NCBI GenBank assembly: GCA_019115485.1
Contig: DXDM01000043.1
Coordinates: 1 to 64,000, forward strand
Direction of reading: 5' to 3'
From: Candidatus Barnesiella excrementavium
Lineage (GTDB): Bacteria; Bacteroidota; Bacteroidia; Bacteroidales; Barnesiellaceae
DNA: 64,000 nucleotides
Part shown: in pieces, positions 8,369 to 15,803 of the stretch
Position numbering within the stretch: position 1 is the first letter of the stretch
Layout: each line of letters begins with the position of its first letter
Program-made: the position numbers and the translations under genes
The notes under the pieces: model-generated
Database searches by the model: none
Told to the model about the DNA's origin: nothing
What the model saw: the letters and a program-made list of their open reading frames with translations, nothing else

Positions 8369-8544
8369 TGTGTGGATACTTTTTTAGTATATGTTTGGTT
8401 ATCGCTATATTCTTGGCGGAAAAAAAAATCTAAACAGAACAAAATAGGTAAATTTGAGCGTTGATATCTCGGGACGCTGCTGACTGTTGAGGAAGAGTCG
8501 GATTGTTGTATCCCCAGGAACTGATTAAATCCTTTTGACCGGTG

Positions 8545-8588
8545 CAAAGGTATCAGCCTGTATGTTCATAATCGGTAACAAATGTTAC
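8545..8588 (-). promoter_or_regulatory. Promoter of lipoprotein operon with Crp/Fnr-like palindrome
   Basis: Reading the minus strand, a TACCTTTG -7 box lies at 8552-8545, giving an expected start near 8540. A perfect 14-bp palindrome, GTAACAAATGTTAC, lies at 8575-8588, centred about 41 bases upstream of that start. This is the class II activator position typical of Crp/Fnr proteins, and the gene for such a protein begins 46 nt away on the other strand. No convincing -33 box is seen, which fits activator dependence. Regulation by the neighbouring protein is inferred. Confidence 0.55.
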
Positions 8589-8633
8589 GCCGGGACAAAA
8601 ACGATGAAATAAGGAGTGGTAGAGTCTGCCAAG

Positions 8634-9245
8634 ATGAATGCTGATATTTATGAAATGCCTCTGTTCAAGGGGGGAAACAAAGTGAATATAGAGAAAATCA
8701 TGCATGATTTTCCCAGCCGATATGTGCACTATAAGAAGGGCGAAATCATTGCCATGCAGGGGAACGCCTGCCGGTCGTTGTATATCCTGTGCCAAGGCAG
8801 CGTCTATGCAAAGATGATTAGTGAGGAGGGGAAGGAGCTGACCTTGGACACCTTGTCGGCTCCCGATGTACTGGCTTCGGCTTTTGTATTCAGTTCCGAA
8901 GGCACATTCCCCGTTACCATCTTGGCGAACAGTGACTGCGACCTGTGGATTGTCAGCAAAGAGAGTCTGTTGAGAATCATCGAGTCCGAACCTTTGGTCC
9001 TGCGCAATTATCTCACGGTCATATCGGATCACAGTATGTTCCTGAGCAAGCGGCTGAACGAGTTTGCCTTGCAGACACTCTCGTCGCGAATCCTGAGTTA
9101 TATCGAACAGAACGGAAGCATACAGAACCTGCAAGAAGCCGCCTTTATTCTTGGCGTTGCCCGTCCCTCCCTTTCCAGGGCCATACTGCAACTGGTCGGT
9201 CAAGGGGTGTTGAAAAAGGAGAACAGAGGATATGTACTTGTTTAA
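8634..9245 (+). CDS. Crp/Fnr-family transcriptional regulator
   Basis: About 203 residues from the ATG at 8634; a GTG at 8616 is in frame but overlaps the AAGGAG sequence, so the ATG is preferred. The N-terminal cyclic-nucleotide-binding-type barrel runs from about residue 20 to 120 (HYKKGEIIAMQG, then LYILCQGSV). The C-terminal winged helix contains LGVARPSLSRAI, the recognition-helix region of Crp/Fnr proteins. No cysteine cluster for an Fe-S centre is visible, so it is not a classical oxygen-sensing Fnr. It is divergent from the lipoprotein operon, with a 14-bp palindrome in the shared intergenic region, suggesting it controls that operon and perhaps itself. Confidence 0.88.
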   Translation: MNADIYEMPLFKGGNKVNIEKIMHDFPSRYVHYKKGEIIAMQGNACRSLYILCQGSVYAKMISEEGKELTLDTLSAPDVLASAFVFSSEGTFPVTILANSDCDLWIVSKESLLRIIESEPLVLRNYLTVISDHSMFLSKRLNEFALQTLSSRILSYIEQNGSIQNLQEAAFILGVARPSLSRAILQLVGQGVLKKENRGYVLV

Positions 9246-9257
9246 GCGAGTGTAATT

Positions 9258-9299
9258 GTCGCAAGAGGTCTCCCATCGCGGAACCCCTCTTGCGACTTT
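9258..9299. terminator. Terminator between convergent genes
   Basis: GTCGCAAGAGG (9258-9268) pairs with CCTCTTGCGAC (9286-9296), followed by TTTATT. It lies between the stop of the Crp/Fnr gene and the stop of the convergent gene at 9314. Confidence 0.75.
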
Positions 9300-9313
9300 A
9301 TTCAATCGACAGA

Positions 9314-10042
9314 TTACAGATTTTCCAACTGTTCAGTTGCCGTGTAGTAATCCAGCAATACTTTGATGGTTTGTGCCGTTGGGCGTTTTTCTGACGGAGT
9401 ATATGGGTTGCATTGTGAAAACAGAATGAGAGAGTCTTTGATATGGGTCTCTTTGAACTCCGGACCAATGCGTTGAGTTGAGTCTAATAACCCGATTACC
9501 CGATATAAGTCACCTGTTTTCAGGCTTTTGACAAATTGTAAATTGTATCCCATCCAGATGATACCCTCGTTTGCTAATTTCCCCCAATAGGCTGCTGATT
9601 CTTTGTTGGCGACGATTATGATTTGGGGCTTTATCACATCTTCAATGATGTGTTGTGTCAAGTTCAGCTGATCGACAATAAATGGTATACCCATTGGATT
9701 GGTGAGAATGTCATGTCTGAGAAAATCCTGCTTTTGTTCACGGAAATAGAACAAATCCAAATAAGCCGATTCTGCGCGAAAGTCATGATTGGCATCTAAG
9801 AGCATCTTTTTTATGGGTTGCCAATAACGGGATTGGGGAACTCGATCGAAGAGAATGTCGTCGAATTTGAAACTCTTGTTGGGTTGCTCTTGTGGATTGA
9901 ATGAAGGATTGATGCCTGTAATCAGGATCTTTTTCTGGCTCTCATTTTCTGAATAATCGAAGCCTCTATCCTTAATTTGGGCAGGTAGTGTAGCGATATA
10001 GTCTTGTGACCATATTTCGCAAAGTCGTTTGTTTGTTTCCAT
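9314..10042 (-). CDS. UDG-superfamily-like protein of unknown function
   Basis: 242 residues, no signal peptide. KILITGINPSF (residues about 38-48) resembles motif A of Mug/family-2 uracil-DNA glycosylases (GINPG). Later segments YLDLFYFRE and QLNLTQHIIEDVIKPQ align by eye with NLLYARE and QLELTYDTIRRLSPV of the 10919-11773 protein, so the two are diverged relatives. No clear glycosylase motif B is seen, so enzyme activity is uncertain. It is the last gene of a three-gene minus-strand cluster of low GC content; the 72-nt gap to the preceding gene allows co-transcription. A defence or DNA-repair role is possible but is inference. Confidence 0.6.
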   Translation of the reverse strand: METNKRLCEIWSQDYIATLPAQIKDRGFDYSENESQKKILITGINPSFNPQEQPNKSFKFDDILFDRVPQSRYWQPIKKMLLDANHDFRAESAYLDLFYFREQKQDFLRHDILTNPMGIPFIVDQLNLTQHIIEDVIKPQIIIVANKESAAYWGKLANEGIIWMGYNLQFVKSLKTGDLYRVIGLLDSTQRIGPEFKETHIKDSLILFSQCNPYTPSEKRPTAQTIKVLLDYYTATEQLENL

Positions 10043-10114
10043 ACGGATTTGTTTTAACGGGTTGGGTTTACTTATTATACGTTATACAGGGCCCGATTTG
10101 TCGGGTGTGTAATG

Positions 10115-10906
10115 TTATCGTTTGAGGGCTGTTAGTATCGATTTGATTGAAGTATATAATCTTAAATCGGCTAATGCGTTATCTTCCGTTGTTGATGTGA
10201 GTGTTTTTAGCTTCATCGACAGGATATTTTCTGCTTGAATCTCTGTCAACTGAAATTCTTCCATCAACTTATTTCGAGCGACCAATAGACTATTCGATTG
10301 TCTGATTGTAAGGATAGCTTTATGCAGATTATTTTCAACGCCTACAATTTTTAATAATCCCGAGGTTTTCTCAATTTGTTGATCTATCATTGCAATTTCA
10401 TGGTCAAGTCGATTCATTAGATACCATGCCAGTGAATGTTCCAACTTGAAATGAAAAACGCATAAAGTCGGTTCTTCTGACTCTTCATCGTAATTGACAC
10501 GTAACGAGGTATTGGCTGCCGATAGTTTCATTTCCAACTTTTGTTCATCGCTATTGTCTTCGTCAAGGAAAAACTTGTCAAAGTCAATATCATTAAATAA
10601 GTCGTTAAGGTAATCATCGTCAAGGCCATCATCGTTAAGGCCATCATCGTCAGAGTCATCATCGTTATCTTTGTGTTTGAAATCTTCCGACTCTCTGTAT
10701 TCCACGAATATTTTTTTTGCTTTTTCCAGGAACGATCGCTTTTCATCCGGTTCTAAATGCGATAAGTCGTTCTCGATTTCTGCCAACTGGATCTCTATAT
10801 CTTGCCAATGATTAAGGATAAATGAATAATCCTCTTGAAGCCGGGGAATTTTAATGACGGCACGTCCGTTGTCATCGAAATCCAATATATTTGAAATGTT
10901 TTCCAT
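10115..10906 (-). CDS. Asp-rich protein with GyrA/ParC exit-gate-like C-terminus
   Basis: 263 residues, no signal peptide. Residues about 1-70 are helical and charged. Residues about 70-125 are extremely acidic (runs of Asp with a five-residue repeat xDDGL). The C-terminus, about 165-241, resembles the coiled coil and dimer-gate segment of DNA gyrase A/ParC: EEFQLTEIQAENILSMKL matches the GyrA consensus around FGLSEIQAxAILDMRL, and the preceding helix GLLKIVGVENNLHKAI matches the GyrA LIALDNIDEVI region. No catalytic tyrosine domain is present. It sits between two UDG-like genes and starts 12 nt after the upstream stop. Base composition is markedly AT-rich. It could be a partner, decoy or inhibitor of type II topoisomerase, but function is unknown. 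Confidence 0.65.
   Translation of the reverse strand: MENISNILDFDDNGRAVIKIPRLQEDYSFILNHWQDIEIQLAEIENDLSHLEPDEKRSFLEKAKKIFVEYRESEDFKHKDNDDDSDDDGLNDDGLDDDYLNDLFNDIDFDKFFLDEDNSDEQKLEMKLSAANTSLRVNYDEESEEPTLCVFHFKLEHSLAWYLMNRLDHEIAMIDQQIEKTSGLLKIVGVENNLHKAILTIRQSNSLLVARNKLMEEFQLTEIQAENILSMKLKTLTSTTEDNALADLRLYTSIKSILTALKR
10607..10666. repeat. 15-bp tandem repeat coding for an acidic stretch
   Basis: Four tandem 15-bp units (10607-10621, 10622-10636, 10637-10651, 10652-10666) of the form AAGGCCATCATCGTT on the plus strand. The middle two differ only in the last base and the outer two are diverged. They encode the five-residue Asp/Gly/Leu repeat in the 10115-10906 protein. Unit length is a multiple of three, so copy-number change would alter length without breaking the frame. 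Confidence 0.85.
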
Positions 10907-10918
10907 ATATTGCGTTTG

Positions 10919-11773
10919 TTAAATTGCCTGGCGAATAGCTCGAATGAGTCTCTCTCGTGACTGGTAGTTCATATCCATAATGTCTTCACTGAAAAAAACC
11001 GGAATAGATGTTCCGCGCAATATGTAATGTCCATGGGTTTCACTATGGGGGTCTATCCAACGATTTTTCTCGAAAATGAGTTGATAGCAGTATTCGCTGA
11101 AAAATACTATGGCGACAGGGCTTAATCTCCGAATCGTGTCATAAGTCAATTCCAGTTGTTCACGAATGAAATCACTGTTTGTATTTAGTAGAGCCTCCCG
11201 GTTGTTTTCACGGGCATAAAGCAGGTTAATGTGTGTATAGGGATATCCGACTCTGTCGGCTATTTTCTCCAACTCTTTAAAGTACAAGGGAGCCCCTGGT
11301 CGTTTGTATAGGCTGTTGTATAAGAGTGCGGTCCCTTTTTTACTCGTTATCATAGTGCTATCGTCGTCGGGCGTATAGGAAGGATTTATCCCAACAAACA
11401 GAATGCTCTCTTGTTCTCCTTCGGCAGAAAAAATAGGACGGCGTTCGAGAATACGGTCGTCGACTCTATGGCGATATTTATTCCATATGAAGTTCAGTCG
11501 CTGTTCGATCCTGTCATAGTCGTTAAGGTCAATGGTGGTAGAAATGTCGTCTGAAACAGATTGACGTTTGGGTTCCATCGTGACAGTATGAGATGCAGTT
11601 TCCATGCTATTATTCTGTGCCTGTTTGACTTCTGATGTAGTATCAGTTTCATTTTTCCTGATTGGTTTAGGTGTGCGCAGTTTCTTTAATCTTCTATATC
11701 GAATTGTTTTTAATGTGAAGAAGAATAGCCAAATGACAAGAATAAAGAAAATCAATTCTCTTATTAACCCCAT
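10919..11773 (-). CDS. Membrane-anchored UDG-superfamily-like protein
   Basis: 284 residues from the ATG at 11773, preceded by AGGAG with an 8-nt spacer; an upstream TTG in frame at 11791 is less likely. One N-terminal membrane segment (about residues 6-24, IRELIFFILVIWLFFF...) is followed by a basic stretch, then a linker and a soluble domain. ILFVGINPSYTP at about 124-135 matches the motif of the 9314-10042 protein and the Mug-type GINPG motif. LLYARENN and QLELTYDTI are further shared segments. The soluble domain should lie in the cytoplasm. First gene of the three-gene cluster, preceded by a 470-bp leader with inverted repeats. Function unknown. Confidence 0.6.
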   Translation of the reverse strand: MGLIRELIFFILVIWLFFFTLKTIRYRRLKKLRTPKPIRKNETDTTSEVKQAQNNSMETASHTVTMEPKRQSVSDDISTTIDLNDYDRIEQRLNFIWNKYRHRVDDRILERRPIFSAEGEQESILFVGINPSYTPDDDSTMITSKKGTALLYNSLYKRPGAPLYFKELEKIADRVGYPYTHINLLYARENNREALLNTNSDFIREQLELTYDTIRRLSPVAIVFFSEYCYQLIFEKNRWIDPHSETHGHYILRGTSIPVFFSEDIMDMNYQSRERLIRAIRQAI

Positions 11774-11939
11774 GGCCAAGACTCCTGCCAAAAGAGGAAT
11801 AAGAATAAAAGAAATGTTTTTCCCATGGTTGTATAATTATTAAGTCAATGCTCCCAGTTGTCAATTTAAAAAAGAAAGTGTGGAGCTTTTTCGTCTATTC
11901 AACAAGAGGTTCTGACAAAACCTGAATACAAATAAACGG

Positions 11940-12156
11940 AAACAATCCCCACACCTGTATCATAGCGTATGGAATACAACGCATGCAGATACAGATGATA
12001 GCCGTTGTCGTTATCCTTGTATTCGTTGAAACTGTCAGATTTCTTGTTAAGGATAGTGCGAGAACACTTTCATCTATTATGTCCAGCCGTTCATGTGTTG
12101 AACGACAAGGCGATATAGTGAAAATTTTTTAAAGGGCAGCATCGTGGGGATTGTTT
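11940..12156. repeat. 13-bp inverted repeat enclosing 217 bp
   Basis: AAACAATCCCCAC at 11940-11952 and its exact reverse complement at 12144-12156. This could be the closing stem of a leader RNA or the ends of a small non-autonomous element. No target-site duplication was identified. Confidence 0.5.
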
Positions 12157-12190
12157 TATTTTAATACCATTAATCAGGTTCGACGACAAA

Positions 12191-12235
12191 GTTACAGGGG
12201 GTATGCGAAATAATATTTCGCATACCCCCTGTAAC
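12191..12235. repeat. 45-bp perfect palindrome (candidate operator or terminator)
   Basis: Arms of 21 bp (12191-12211 and 12215-12235) are exact reverse complements around a three-base centre. It lies 8 bp beyond the stop of the WYL regulator gene and overlaps a TAACTTTG -7 box reading toward the three-gene cluster. No T tract fits a terminator on either strand (only TTT on the minus side). An operator for the WYL protein or a transcription boundary are the two plausible roles. Confidence 0.6.
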
Positions 12236-12243
12236 TAAAAAAA

Positions 12244-13167
12244 TTATTGGTAAAGGTCGGTCAGTCGATGTGATTTCTGTTTTAAGATTTCCCGGAGAGA
12301 GGTGGGTTCTAAGACTTCGAGTTGTTCGGCATGAAGAAATATTTCCTGCACAAAATCAAAGGCCGGAATCAGCCAATATTCAAAAACCGTATAATCCGAG
12401 GTCTGTTCTTTTATTTCCTGGCTGTAATGGAGAGGTTGGGATATGAGGTATTGAGGAAGTTCCTGATAGGCTTTCAAAACGATGCGACATGGTTTCTCGG
12501 TATATCCATCGGTCGAAATGCCGTAGAATGGGGCGAAATATTCTTGGGGGGCGAAATTGGGGGGATAGGTGAAGTGGGTCGATGTAAGTTCGCAACGATT
12601 GAACCGATCCAACGCATAGATGCGGAATTTCTTGTTTGTACTATGTCGACAAAGCAGGTACCACCTGCGTTTGAACATCTTCAAACACAACGGTTCAACC
12701 AATATCCCTTGCCGTGCCATGCTGCCAATATGGAATGACTTGTAGTCGATACACAGTACCGTATTGTCTCTTAAAGCCTTTGTAATCGGGCTTAAATATT
12801 GGGTGCCTGCGTCTGACGCTTCCAATATTATTTTGTCAGAGATATTTTTACAGTTTGTTATCAATTCTTCCGTAGCTATACTGCTCAATAGCCATTCGAT
12901 GTGCCGGTATTGAGAGTCATTGGCTGTCTCGATTTTATAATGACTGTTTGCTCCTGAGCGTACACACTTGATTTGTATATCCAATTGGTCGGCTATAGCA
13001 TAACAGTGATTGAGAAATGTCCTTCGGGAAATATCGGTTTCGCCACAGTCTTTGTAGTGAGAACTCCTTTGCCATTCGGCGTTGATTTCGGCAAGAGTAA
13101 GTCCCGAAGGGTTACGCCGTAATAACTCAATCAACCATAGGTATCGTTTAATAAGAAGGGTTGCCAT
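12244..13167 (-). CDS. WYL-domain transcriptional regulator
   Basis: 307 residues. The N-terminal winged-helix part (about 1-70: KRYLWLIELLRRNPSGLTLAEI) is followed by a WYL domain, roughly 120-220, with VEPLCLKMFKRRWYLLCRH containing the WYL triplet and RIYALDRF after it. The C-terminal WCX-like part runs to the end. WYL proteins bind nucleic-acid ligands and often control phage-defence or DNA-repair loci. It lies 44 nt downstream of the beta-mannosidase gene on the same strand but in a lower-GC stretch, and directly before the palindrome and the UDG-like/GyrA-like cluster, which it probably regulates. Confidence 0.88.
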   Translation of the reverse strand: MATLLIKRYLWLIELLRRNPSGLTLAEINAEWQRSSHYKDCGETDISRRTFLNHCYAIADQLDIQIKCVRSGANSHYKIETANDSQYRHIEWLLSSIATEELITNCKNISDKIILEASDAGTQYLSPITKALRDNTVLCIDYKSFHIGSMARQGILVEPLCLKMFKRRWYLLCRHSTNKKFRIYALDRFNRCELTSTHFTYPPNFAPQEYFAPFYGISTDGYTEKPCRIVLKAYQELPQYLISQPLHYSQEIKEQTSDYTVFEYWLIPAFDFVQEIFLHAEQLEVLEPTSLREILKQKSHRLTDLYQ

Positions 13168-13211
13168 TCGCTTATTGATTATGGGGGAATTATTTGAATG
13201 TATGTACGATT

Positions 13212-15803
13212 TTATTTCGTGTCCCCCTCATACGTGTCGGTTAGGGTGTGTATTCTGATGCGGGCTACCGCCTCGGGGGTGATGTCTGTCCCGTCGATGG
13301 TCACTACCTTGCGCTCGCCCGGCAGCAGGTCGAAGAAATTGTCGGAGAAGTTGGCCCCTTGGGAGGGTATCTCGATGAATACGTCTTTGGCCAGGCAGTC
13401 TGTGGTGAGGGTGAGCGTGATGCCCTGGGGTGTCGTCTCGATGGTTGAGGTCAGATGAGGTCGGGGCAGGTTCAGCTCTTTGGGTACGGCGAGGAACTTG
13501 TGGCCGTTGAATAGGGTTTCACCCCGATGCTCTATCCGCAAAGTGAGGATTACCTCGTTTTTCTTCCACTCGCCCAGCAGGTCGGCAAGGCTGAGGGTTG
13601 TGACGCGTCGGGTGGTATTGGGCTCTATGTCGCACGCGAAGCTGAGGGCGTTTAGCTCCTTCCCGTAGAAATCTTGCAGACCGATGGTGACGCGGGCCTG
13701 GTCAATCCGGTCGAGTCGGTCGGAGAGGGTGTAGACCGATAGGCTGTCGCCCTGGACGGTGGTCGAGAGTATCAGGGGGGCAAAGGCGTCGCGGGCATGG
13801 TAGTAGAGGGCTTTCTTGTTCTTGTAGTAGTCGATGGCCGACCACGAGATGGCGGGCCAGCTGTCGTTGAGTTGCCAGTAGAGCGACCCCATGCATACGG
13901 GGCGTTGTCGCCGGTTGGTCTCTATGCCGTGGGCGATGCCGTGCCCTTGCAGCAGCAGTCCCAGGTAGACAAAGTCGTCGAAGGTGCGGGGCATGCGGTA
14001 GTAGTTCTGCATGTACTCTTGTATCAGTTCGTTGCCGATGCTGCTCTTCTGGCGGTGGGTCATCACCTCGGAGTCGATGTGCAGGTCGTCGGGCCCGGCA
14101 AAGGTGCGCAGGGTCTTCATCTCGGGGAAGGACTCGAACCCGAATTCGCTGACGAACCGCAGGGAGAGGGTGTCCATGGTGTCGAACATCTCCCGGCCGT
14201 ACCAGATGCCCCAATAGTGGATATCGCCCTGGGTCTGTGTGGTGGGGCGTCCCCAGTTGGCCGAGTCGGGCGACGTGTGTATGTAGCTGCGTTGCGGGTC
14301 GTAGCGGCGCACGCACTCGGCGAGGGTGTCGCGGAAGAGGGTGTGGTAGTTGTGTCGCATCTGTTCAAAGGTCTCGGCTGGATAGCGATGGTTCCACCCC
14401 CAGTATTTGATTCCCTCGTAGATTTCGTTGTTGCCGCACCACAGGGCCAGCGAGGGGTGGTTGCGCAGCCGCCTGATGTTGTAGCGGGCTTCGCGGGAGA
14501 CGTTGTCGAGAAAGGCCGTGTCGCCAGGGTAGGTCGAGCAGGCAAACATGAAATCCTGCCAGACGAGTATACCGTAGCGGTCGGCCAACCGATAGAAAAG
14601 CTCCTCCTCATACACGCCGCCTCCCCACACCCGCACCATGTTCATGTGCGACTCCTTCATGTCGCGGAACAGACGCTCGTAGTCGGCGGGGGTAACCCGG
14701 GTGAGTATGATGTCCTGAGGTATGTAGTTGCTTCCTTTGGCAAAGAGCGGACGGCCGTTCACCCGGAAGTAGAAGTTGCGTCCCAACTTGTCCGGTTCGT
14801 TGATGAACTCGATGGTGCGTATCCCCGTCTGGTAGCGGCGGCTCGACAACTGTTTGTCCCCTTTCACGAGGGCTATCTCCACGTCGTAGAGGTGAGCCTC
14901 GCCCCAGCCATTGGGTTGCCAGAGTTTCGGGTGAGCCACCTCGGCCGGTAGGGTGATGCGATTCTCGCCCGGTTGCAGAGTGTACTCCTGGCACCAGCGG
15001 GCCACCTCGTTTCCCGCGTGGGAGAGGGTGAATTGCACTTCGACCGATTCGACGGGTCGGCTGTTCTCGTTGACGACGAGCAGGTCGGTCGAGAGTTCGG
15101 CCCGGTTGTTGTCGACGTGCAGGGTGCGGGTGAAGGCATCATCGATGCGTACTCCGTTGTAGAAGAGCAGCTGGGCCGGTCGCCAAATGCCGCAACCCAC
15201 CAGGCGGATACCCCAGTCCCACCCGTAGTGGTAGGGAGCTTTGCGGGCATAGACACTCAGGTGGGGCGTGCTGCGGTCGTTGTCGGCGGGGTAGTCGATG
15301 CCCGTTTGCCGGTATATCGGTTCCACCGCTTTGAGCGGCGATGTAAAGTGGACGGTCAGGGTATTCTCTCCCGTGATGAGCAGCGGCTTCACCTCCTTCT
15401 CCCAGGCCACGAACATGTTGTCGGTCTGCATGACCGGCTTCCCGTTCAGGAAGATGCGGGCAAAGGTGTCGAGTCCCTCGAAGATGAGGTGGGCGTGAGA
15501 GTATCGGTCACGGGTAGAGCTGTCGACGGTAAAGGTGGTCGTGTAGCACCAGTCCTTCTCTTCGACCCATTTCACCTTCTCCTCGTTCTTTCCGTAGAAA
15601 GGGTCGTCGAGCAGTCCGTTGCGCAGCAGGTCGGCATGCACTGTACCCGGCACCGTAGCGGGATAGGAGCGGGATTCCCCTTCGGGACCGAAGCTCCACC
15701 CTTGGTCGAGCGTGATCACACGGGAGTCGTCGAGGTGTTGCGGAAAGGTCGGTTGCATGAGGAACAGGAAGATTATCAGCAGAATAACTATACGGTAGTT
15801 CAT
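13212..15803 (-). CDS. Beta-mannosidase, glycoside hydrolase family 2
   Basis: 863 residues with an N-terminal signal peptide (VILLIIFLFLMQ). Typical GH2 beta-mannosidase layout: N-terminal jelly-roll, immunoglobulin-like domains, then the TIM barrel containing RVWGGGVYEEE, WQDFMFACSTYPG and LWCGNNEIYEG. E460 (in the NNE motif) is the expected acid/base and E553 (in FVSEFGFES) the expected nucleophile. SLYWQLNDSWPAISWS near the end of the barrel is also characteristic. It should remove terminal beta-mannose from mannan or N-glycan oligosaccharides in the periplasm. A TACCTTTG box (15836-15829, minus strand) lies 26 nt before the start. No SusCD pair is adjacent, so it is not in an obvious polysaccharide locus. 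Confidence 0.95.
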   Translation of the reverse strand: MNYRIVILLIIFLFLMQPTFPQHLDDSRVITLDQGWSFGPEGESRSYPATVPGTVHADLLRNGLLDDPFYGKNEEKVKWVEEKDWCYTTTFTVDSSTRDRYSHAHLIFEGLDTFARIFLNGKPVMQTDNMFVAWEKEVKPLLITGENTLTVHFTSPLKAVEPIYRQTGIDYPADNDRSTPHLSVYARKAPYHYGWDWGIRLVGCGIWRPAQLLFYNGVRIDDAFTRTLHVDNNRAELSTDLLVVNENSRPVESVEVQFTLSHAGNEVARWCQEYTLQPGENRITLPAEVAHPKLWQPNGWGEAHLYDVEIALVKGDKQLSSRRYQTGIRTIEFINEPDKLGRNFYFRVNGRPLFAKGSNYIPQDIILTRVTPADYERLFRDMKESHMNMVRVWGGGVYEEELFYRLADRYGILVWQDFMFACSTYPGDTAFLDNVSREARYNIRRLRNHPSLALWCGNNEIYEGIKYWGWNHRYPAETFEQMRHNYHTLFRDTLAECVRRYDPQRSYIHTSPDSANWGRPTTQTQGDIHYWGIWYGREMFDTMDTLSLRFVSEFGFESFPEMKTLRTFAGPDDLHIDSEVMTHRQKSSIGNELIQEYMQNYYRMPRTFDDFVYLGLLLQGHGIAHGIETNRRQRPVCMGSLYWQLNDSWPAISWSAIDYYKNKKALYYHARDAFAPLILSTTVQGDSLSVYTLSDRLDRIDQARVTIGLQDFYGKELNALSFACDIEPNTTRRVTTLSLADLLGEWKKNEVILTLRIEHRGETLFNGHKFLAVPKELNLPRPHLTSTIETTPQGITLTLTTDCLAKDVFIEIPSQGANFSDNFFDLLPGERKVVTIDGTDITPEAVARIRIHTLTDTYEGDTK

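Follow-up and report, generated by a model that had tools for sequence, protein, structure and literature searches.

The 64,000-nucleotide stretch of Candidatus Barnesiella excrementavium analysed here (contig DXDM01000043.1, positions 1 to 64,000; hereafter, the window) carries, between a Crp/Fnr-like gene and a beta-mannosidase-like gene, a block of four genes that may form a mobile anti-phage module, two of whose products, P1 and P3, are predicted to belong to the uracil-DNA glycosylase (UDG) superfamily. The preliminary description of this DNA had noted a four-gene run of low guanine-plus-cytosine (GC) content on the minus strand, and this holds: the WYL regulator gene, P3, P2 and P1 all lie on that strand within 9314-13167, with a GC content of 43%, 41%, 37% and 41%, respectively, against a window average of 53% and 60% in the adjoining beta-mannosidase-like gene. 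Transcription proceeds from the WYL regulator across a gap of ~450 bp to P3, and from there to P2 (12 bp later) and P1 (72 bp later). The features of the block are as follows.

9247..13223, no strand: inserted block (island) between the Crp/Fnr-like gene and the beta-mannosidase-like gene, delimited by BLASTN against sister species
9314..10042, minus strand: P1, 242 aa, predicted soluble UDG-family protein assigned by homology to P3; motif A GINPS; Asp in YLDLFYFRE
10115..10906, minus strand: P2, 263 aa, acidic in its N-terminal part, with a GyrA/ParC exit-gate segment (about 163-248) towards the C-terminus
10919..11791, minus strand: P3, 290 aa, or 284 aa with a start at the ATG of 11773; N-terminal hydrophobic helix, flexible linker and predicted C-terminal UDG-fold domain (residues about 87-290)
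12190..12236, no strand: perfect 23-bp inverted repeat with a 1-nt spacer, between the WYL gene, whose stop codon it directly follows, and P3
12244..13167, minus strand: WYL/WCX-domain transcriptional regulator, 307 aa (PF13280), inside the inserted block

The two flanking genes, Crp/Fnr-like (8616-9245) and beta-mannosidase-like (13212-15803), are neighbours in three sister species, and the comparison of positions 8501-14000 of the window with these species by BLASTN places the breakpoints at 9246 and 13224; since they enclose the WYL gene, the regulator is part of the block. Between the flanks there are about 78 bp in one sister species (G004), about 550 bp with one other gene in another (G008, flank proteins 92% identical), and about 1.4 kb of unrelated sequence with two genes in the third (G003), the second of which encodes a TIR protein (PF13676, E 1.9e-11; ThsB_TIR above cut-off) that is ThsB-like by the PADLOC models. 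Given these differences, the spot takes varied defence-like cargo. Because the block occupies a place that holds other defence-like genes in related species, it probably represents a so far undescribed defence against viruses, one directed at modified bases in viral DNA. None of the eight congeneric genomes examined besides this one carries P1. The occupied and empty sites in the sister genomes indicate that the block is transferable, so that the mobility proposed in the preliminary description stands for the block as a whole, but not for the three-gene order that was to be sought in other genomes, of which P3 and P1 co-occur at two further loci (L025 and L027) and P2 at none. At the same spot, the TIR gene of the sister species is accompanied by a gene for a 147-aa partner with no family assigned (L074:3000-4264), possibly a new TIR pair, and the closest sister species carries a 169-aa P-loop-like protein (GQSNSGKTQT) with no Pfam match (L073:2903-3412).

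The soluble domain of P3 (residues about 85-290) was modelled confidently by AlphaFold2 from an alignment with eight relatives, and the best Foldseek match of the model in the PDB is the family 4 uracil-DNA glycosylase 4zby (E 7.9e-6), the top rows being all UDGs; with VIA-align as the second structure aligner, 4zbx aligns with a Z of 12.1 and a root-mean-square deviation of 3.5 over 163 residues, and only UDG-superfamily entries appear among the matches listed. On this model, P3 is predicted to have the alpha/beta fold of the UDG superfamily. P1 and P3 are homologous by pairwise BLASTP (E 5e-6) and, more strongly, by profile-profile comparison of the two families with hhalign (E 2e-20), and the P1-family profile recovers P3 from its own genome at E 1.1e-16, which places P1 as a putative member of the same superfamily through the UDG-fold P3 family. 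PDB sequence searches with P1, P3 and type T (the other partner gene described below) returned no relative at a meaningful score, and the assignment to the UDG fold is therefore based on predicted models. Upstream of this domain, the P3 model shows a hydrophobic helix (residues about 3-36) followed by the basic stretch KTIRYRRLKKLR; the positive-inside rule would put the UDG domain in the cytoplasm. The start of P3 is ambiguous: translation may begin later than at the TTG of 11791, an in-frame ATG being present at 11773. The proposal that the block encodes two diverged UDG-like relatives sharing GINPS, one of them with a membrane anchor, is supported. Weak Pfam matches of P3 (Chordopox_G3, MAPEG, DUF4771) were below the cut-off, on the hydrophobic helix or the linker, and were discarded.

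The motifs of the pair show a mixed relationship with the described UDG families. Motif A reads G-[IV]-N-P-S in the alignment of close P3 relatives, and its N-P-S is present in 9/9 P3-family and 8/9 P1-type sequences; this pattern corresponds to the G-x-N-P of Mug/TDG-type enzymes (here G-[I/V/F/M]-N-P) and carries the putative catalytic Asn (N136 of P3 in the 290-aa frame, N45 of P1), which in Mug/TDG activates water. A second putative pocket residue, in an (N/D)L segment assigned by sequence pattern, and not by an inspected superposition, to the base-contact strand of UDGs, is Asn in P3 (HINLLYAREN; 8/9) and Asp in P1 (YLDLFYFRE; 9/9). At the position of motif B, P3 has PVFF[ST][ED]D and P1 a variable LF[ST]xx, neither of the NPS/HPS type, and for this reason P1 and P3 are not filed as Mug/TDG members; motif B is relaxed in TDG too. 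The overall shape of P3 is closest to family 4 UDGs, which have four cysteines for a 4Fe-4S cluster, whereas P3 carries one cysteine in all. P3 lacks the Fe-S cysteines of family 4, and further differences from the described enzymes are a motif B that is not of the HPS/NPS type and the additional membrane anchor.

The distribution of the pair is patchy. Strong matches to P3 occur in 3/393 Bacteroidales genomes and matches to P1 in 6/393, the genome of origin included in both; the other close P3 homologues in these genomes are two, with 53% identity, accompanied by several remote ones. An earlier scan of genome contigs with the P3 sequence alone gave nothing, and a scan of 84,980 species genomes with the P3-family alignment found eight loci, seven of them close and one remote, which include contigs from the 393-genome search. 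In the seven close loci, the gene directly 3' of P3 is either P1-type (L025 and L027, 46-52% identical to P1 of the window) or of another type, type T (L024, with the P3 frame split in two, L026, L028, L029 and L030), and in L025 the three stand in the order P3, P1 and type T. No sequence similarity to P1 or P3 was detectable in type T; nevertheless, the first 21 Foldseek rows of its model (mean predicted local distance difference test score, pLDDT, 73) are TDG/Mug (best E 3.3e-3), and VIA-align gives a Z of 9.5 against 4zby, so that type T is, as modelled, a UDG-fold protein. Since P3 is always followed in these seven loci by a P1-type gene or by the UDG-fold type T, the conserved unit appears to be a pair of UDG-fold proteins, and the absence of P2 from the other P3/P1 loci means that the P3-P1 pair exists elsewhere without it. 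The preliminary description mentioned neither this pairing, nor the possibility of a partner unrelated in sequence, nor the variable cargo of the spot. At L061:8009-9523, a P3-like fusion protein, possibly non-catalytic, has a C-terminal domain of the P1 type in which motif A is lost (GLYCN), and is followed by type T.

Full-length relatives of P3 (about 455-478 aa) have a conserved N-terminal module, with the consensus GxxFKRELGKNxGKxVSNxxFGDxHSTPYRRV, then coiled-coil or membrane segments, and then the UDG domain; P3 of the window, compared with this full arrangement, keeps only the membrane helix. When only the 41 residues of the anchor module were used as the query, the P3-type loci were recovered together with three more. 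In L089:4324-6569, the module (GRNAGKWVSNKVFGNTGWATPRRH) starts a 456-aa protein, with a modest match (52% over 33 residues, E 3.8e-5), and the gene overlaps that of a nuclease with PvuRts1I-like (E 2e-32) and SRA (E 6e-28) domains. PvuRts1I-type enzymes cut DNA with hydroxymethylated cytosine. The related module in a gene that overlaps such an endonuclease gene suggests a shared task with modified phage DNA, and the module looks like an anchor that can be exchanged between effectors dealing with modified DNA, with the difference that the PvuRts1I-like enzyme is a nuclease with an SRA reader and not a glycosylase. A stand-alone protein of 184 aa carries the module too, together with a hydrophobic helix at its C-terminus, and its gene has mutS and a multicopper oxidase-like gene as neighbours (L090:6308-6862). 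At L059:7755-9558, the module is part of a 255-aa protein devoid of a UDG domain, and a P1-type gene follows, anchor and UDG domain being encoded separately there.

The neighbourhoods of the homologues include defence genes, in agreement with the proximity that had been anticipated. In Balneicella halophila (L018/L028), a D12 methylase and a type II enzyme precede the UDG-fold pair and type III Mod/Res genes follow it; other neighbours are an NB-ARC STAND protein with TPRs (L029), AbiEi/AbiEii (L027), a WYL regulator and a PDC-S26 PD-(D/E)XK protein that adjoin a P1-type gene (L056), and HsdM, AAA and WYL genes within about 8 kb of another (L055). At the last locus, an AAA ATPase, a WYL gene and a 296-aa protein stand beside HsdM (L055:1747-5293), and the pair of WYL and AAA genes recurs before UDG-like genes in L031. 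The regulator of the block itself had been recognised correctly, with a PF13280 match (E 5.4e-11) of 42.8 bits against the Pfam cut-off of 21.8. WYL regulators commonly control such cargo, and WYL genes are present in 3/20 of the P1/P3-homologue loci, which cover 268 kb in total, where about 0.16 would be expected from the density in the genus, where about 26 Mb gave 15 domain matches; the figure is approximate, as the homologue loci come from genera other than the density sample. The inverted repeat at 12190-12236 is single-copy in the genome, folds with -38 kcal/mol (z -9.4) and is a terminator-like hairpin or a possible regulator site. Rfam recognised no RNA in 9200-13250, and the Bacteroidota -7 motif TAnnTTTG was not found upstream of P3 except for one occurrence overlapping the hairpin. 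Binding to inverted repeats has been described for WYL regulators of defence islands (PMC9122601), and the regulator here resembles those of the BrxR/CapW type (PMC9122601, PMC9122588) in its position beside defence-type cargo and near a long inverted repeat, although the repeat here is downstream of the regulator gene and could simply be its terminator.

Two features ascribed to P2, an Asp-rich stretch and a C-terminus like the GyrA/ParC exit gate, are both present. In residues 61-125, 27/65 are D/E (42%), and the C-terminal half matches GyrA/ParC models of NCBIfam (E 3.1e-10), positions 286-403 of the 432 of PF00521 (E 7.4e-7, slightly under the cut-off), GyrA 4ddq in the PDB (E 2.4e-4) and frames of Bacteroidales type II topoisomerase A subunits (best 2.8e-11), over the coiled-coil and exit gate and with identities of roughly 30-40%. 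In the other genomes that match, the hits listed occupy open frames of the length usual for complete topoisomerase subunits. By these sequence comparisons, the segment about 163-248 is taken as truly homologous to the GyrA/ParC exit gate, in the C-terminal part of PF00521; P2 gave no match to the winged-helix domain with the active-site Tyr and, in contrast with GyrA/ParC, none to the C-terminal DNA-wrapping domain, and its gate is fused to an acidic region. No second copy of P2 turned up in the 393 Bacteroidales genomes or in the collections of phage, plasmid and viral sequences that were searched, and the suggested action on type II topoisomerase, which consequently depends on a single orphan protein, finds no support.

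Taken together, these data may be explained by a mobile anti-phage module in which a pair of UDG-fold proteins excises a modified or non-canonical base in the manner of the Brig glycosylases, a reading to which we would give an even chance; a role in defence as such is, in our judgement, considerably more probable than this particular mechanism. The analysis itself establishes the genes and their homology, the fold as predicted, the pairing, the place of insertion, the neighbouring defence genes and the conserved Asn-Pro-Ser of motif A. The model that we infer, from catalytic activity and substrate through membrane topology and regulation to phage defence itself and any role of P2, would run as follows. 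The core would consist of P3, held by its anchor on the inner side of the membrane, and its soluble partner P1, which together would recognise a base that is modified or non-canonical in phage DNA as it enters the cell or replicates, flip it into a glycosylase pocket and excise it; replication of the phage would then be blocked by the abasic sites left behind, as happens with the Brig enzymes. The anchor would put P3 where DNA enters the cell, the WYL regulator would probably repress the block until infection or DNA damage, and P2 would be an accessory gene of this copy, its GyrA-type gate serving perhaps for dimerisation. A further proposal, that these loci represent a new type of system with obligatory UDG-fold pairs, an exchangeable membrane anchor on one member, joint reading and excision of modified bases at the point of phage-DNA entry, interchangeable partners from two unrelated UDG-fold families and, in this copy, a captured GyrA exit gate as an extra subunit, is tentative and somewhat doubtful.

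Brig1, a defence glycosylase of the UDG superfamily, removes alpha-glucosyl-5-hydroxymethylcytosine from T-even phage DNA, and its best structural match was 4ZBY (PMC11078745), the same Sulfolobus family 4 UDG that P3 matches; P3 also shares with it the predicted superfamily and the location in defence islands, indicated here by both the insertion spot and the neighbourhoods of the homologues. Brig3 removes 5-hydroxymethylcytosine, and BapA, its partner in the same operon, strips the glucose (PMC13160076); the operon partner recalls P1 or type T beside P3, while BapA itself is, according to that source, no UDG but a glucosyl hydrolase of ASCH-type structure. In the portions of these reports that were available, Brig1 and Brig3 act as single glycosylases and no membrane anchor is reported, unlike P3, which carries a predicted anchor and is paired with a UDG-fold partner, at some loci one unrelated in sequence; the comparison with Brig1-3 is by description and not by sequence. 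A 2026 survey of predicted systems names UDG domains in a figure legend (PMC13092281), and these may or may not correspond to the P3-P1 module.

Several observations weigh against excision by the pair as an anti-phage mechanism. Motif B is degenerate in both P1 and P3, as judged from the alignments, so that one or both may bind bases without excising them; neither protein is known to PADLOC, Pfam or NCBIfam (no Pfam model was above the cut-off, and no NCBIfam or PADLOC model matched), and we know of no member of either family with a known activity or phage phenotype. Searches of plasmids, phages and viral contigs found no close copy of P1, P3 or type T on a phage or plasmid, the sole find being a 24%-identical homologue on a Runella plasmid, adjoining an MvaI/BcnI-family restriction-modification system. 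At the remote locus L031 (AAA ATPase, WYL, a 245-aa protein and a P3-like protein with a C-terminal UVR motif), the pairing is not apparent from the sequences, as the 245-aa protein has an LNPK motif and was yet missed by the family profile. Finally, P1-type genes are solitary among housekeeping genes in L020, L022 and L054, which fits a non-defence role equally well.

The degenerate motif B is also an argument for a sensor instead of an enzyme, in which the UDG-fold pair would bind a modified base, an abasic site or a free nucleobase but not excise it, and membrane-tethered P3 would then act as an abortive effector or signal to one; the membrane helix of P3, the coiled-coil or membrane module of its relatives and the relative at L043/L061, which retains the architecture after the loss of motif A, agree with it. 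Nevertheless, the N-P-S of motif A hardly varies elsewhere, and it is difficult to account for this other than by a catalytic or pocket constraint; moreover, no known toxic domain was recognised in the module, so that we regard a sensor as unlikely, if still a serious contender. Accessory DNA repair or genome maintenance in the host, with the defence neighbourhood as incidental hitch-hiking on mobile DNA, would account for the solitary P1-type homologues and for the UvrB/UvrC motif at the C-terminus of the distant P3 of L031, but appears rather improbable in view of the patchy distribution of both families, including the absence of P1 from the eight congeners, the variable insertion site with TIR cargo and the repeated restriction-modification, AbiE and STAND neighbours. 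Least probable of all, and in our opinion very improbable, is a central role of P2, in which this protein, an acidic decoy in the style of a DNA mimic, would use its exit gate to pair with GyrA/ParC of host or phage and would modulate the topoisomerase, helped by the UDG-like proteins: the significant gate homology, in which a dimer-forming segment is present and nothing aligned to the catalytic domain, the acidic N-terminal half and the position 12 bp after P3 in the same direction are compatible with it; against it, P2 is lacking at all other P3/P1 loci and in each of the collections searched.

DNA-glycosylase immunity has so far been described for few enzymes, Brig1-3. If excision of a modified base by the P3-P1 pair is correct, this form of immunity would be extended, as a two-component and membrane-linked version, to Bacteroidales and their phages, base-modified DNA would be predicted in the phages that select for the module, and a new set of base-specific glycosylases or base readers would become available; the anchor module held in common with a PvuRts1I-like nuclease makes the question of the substrate directly testable.

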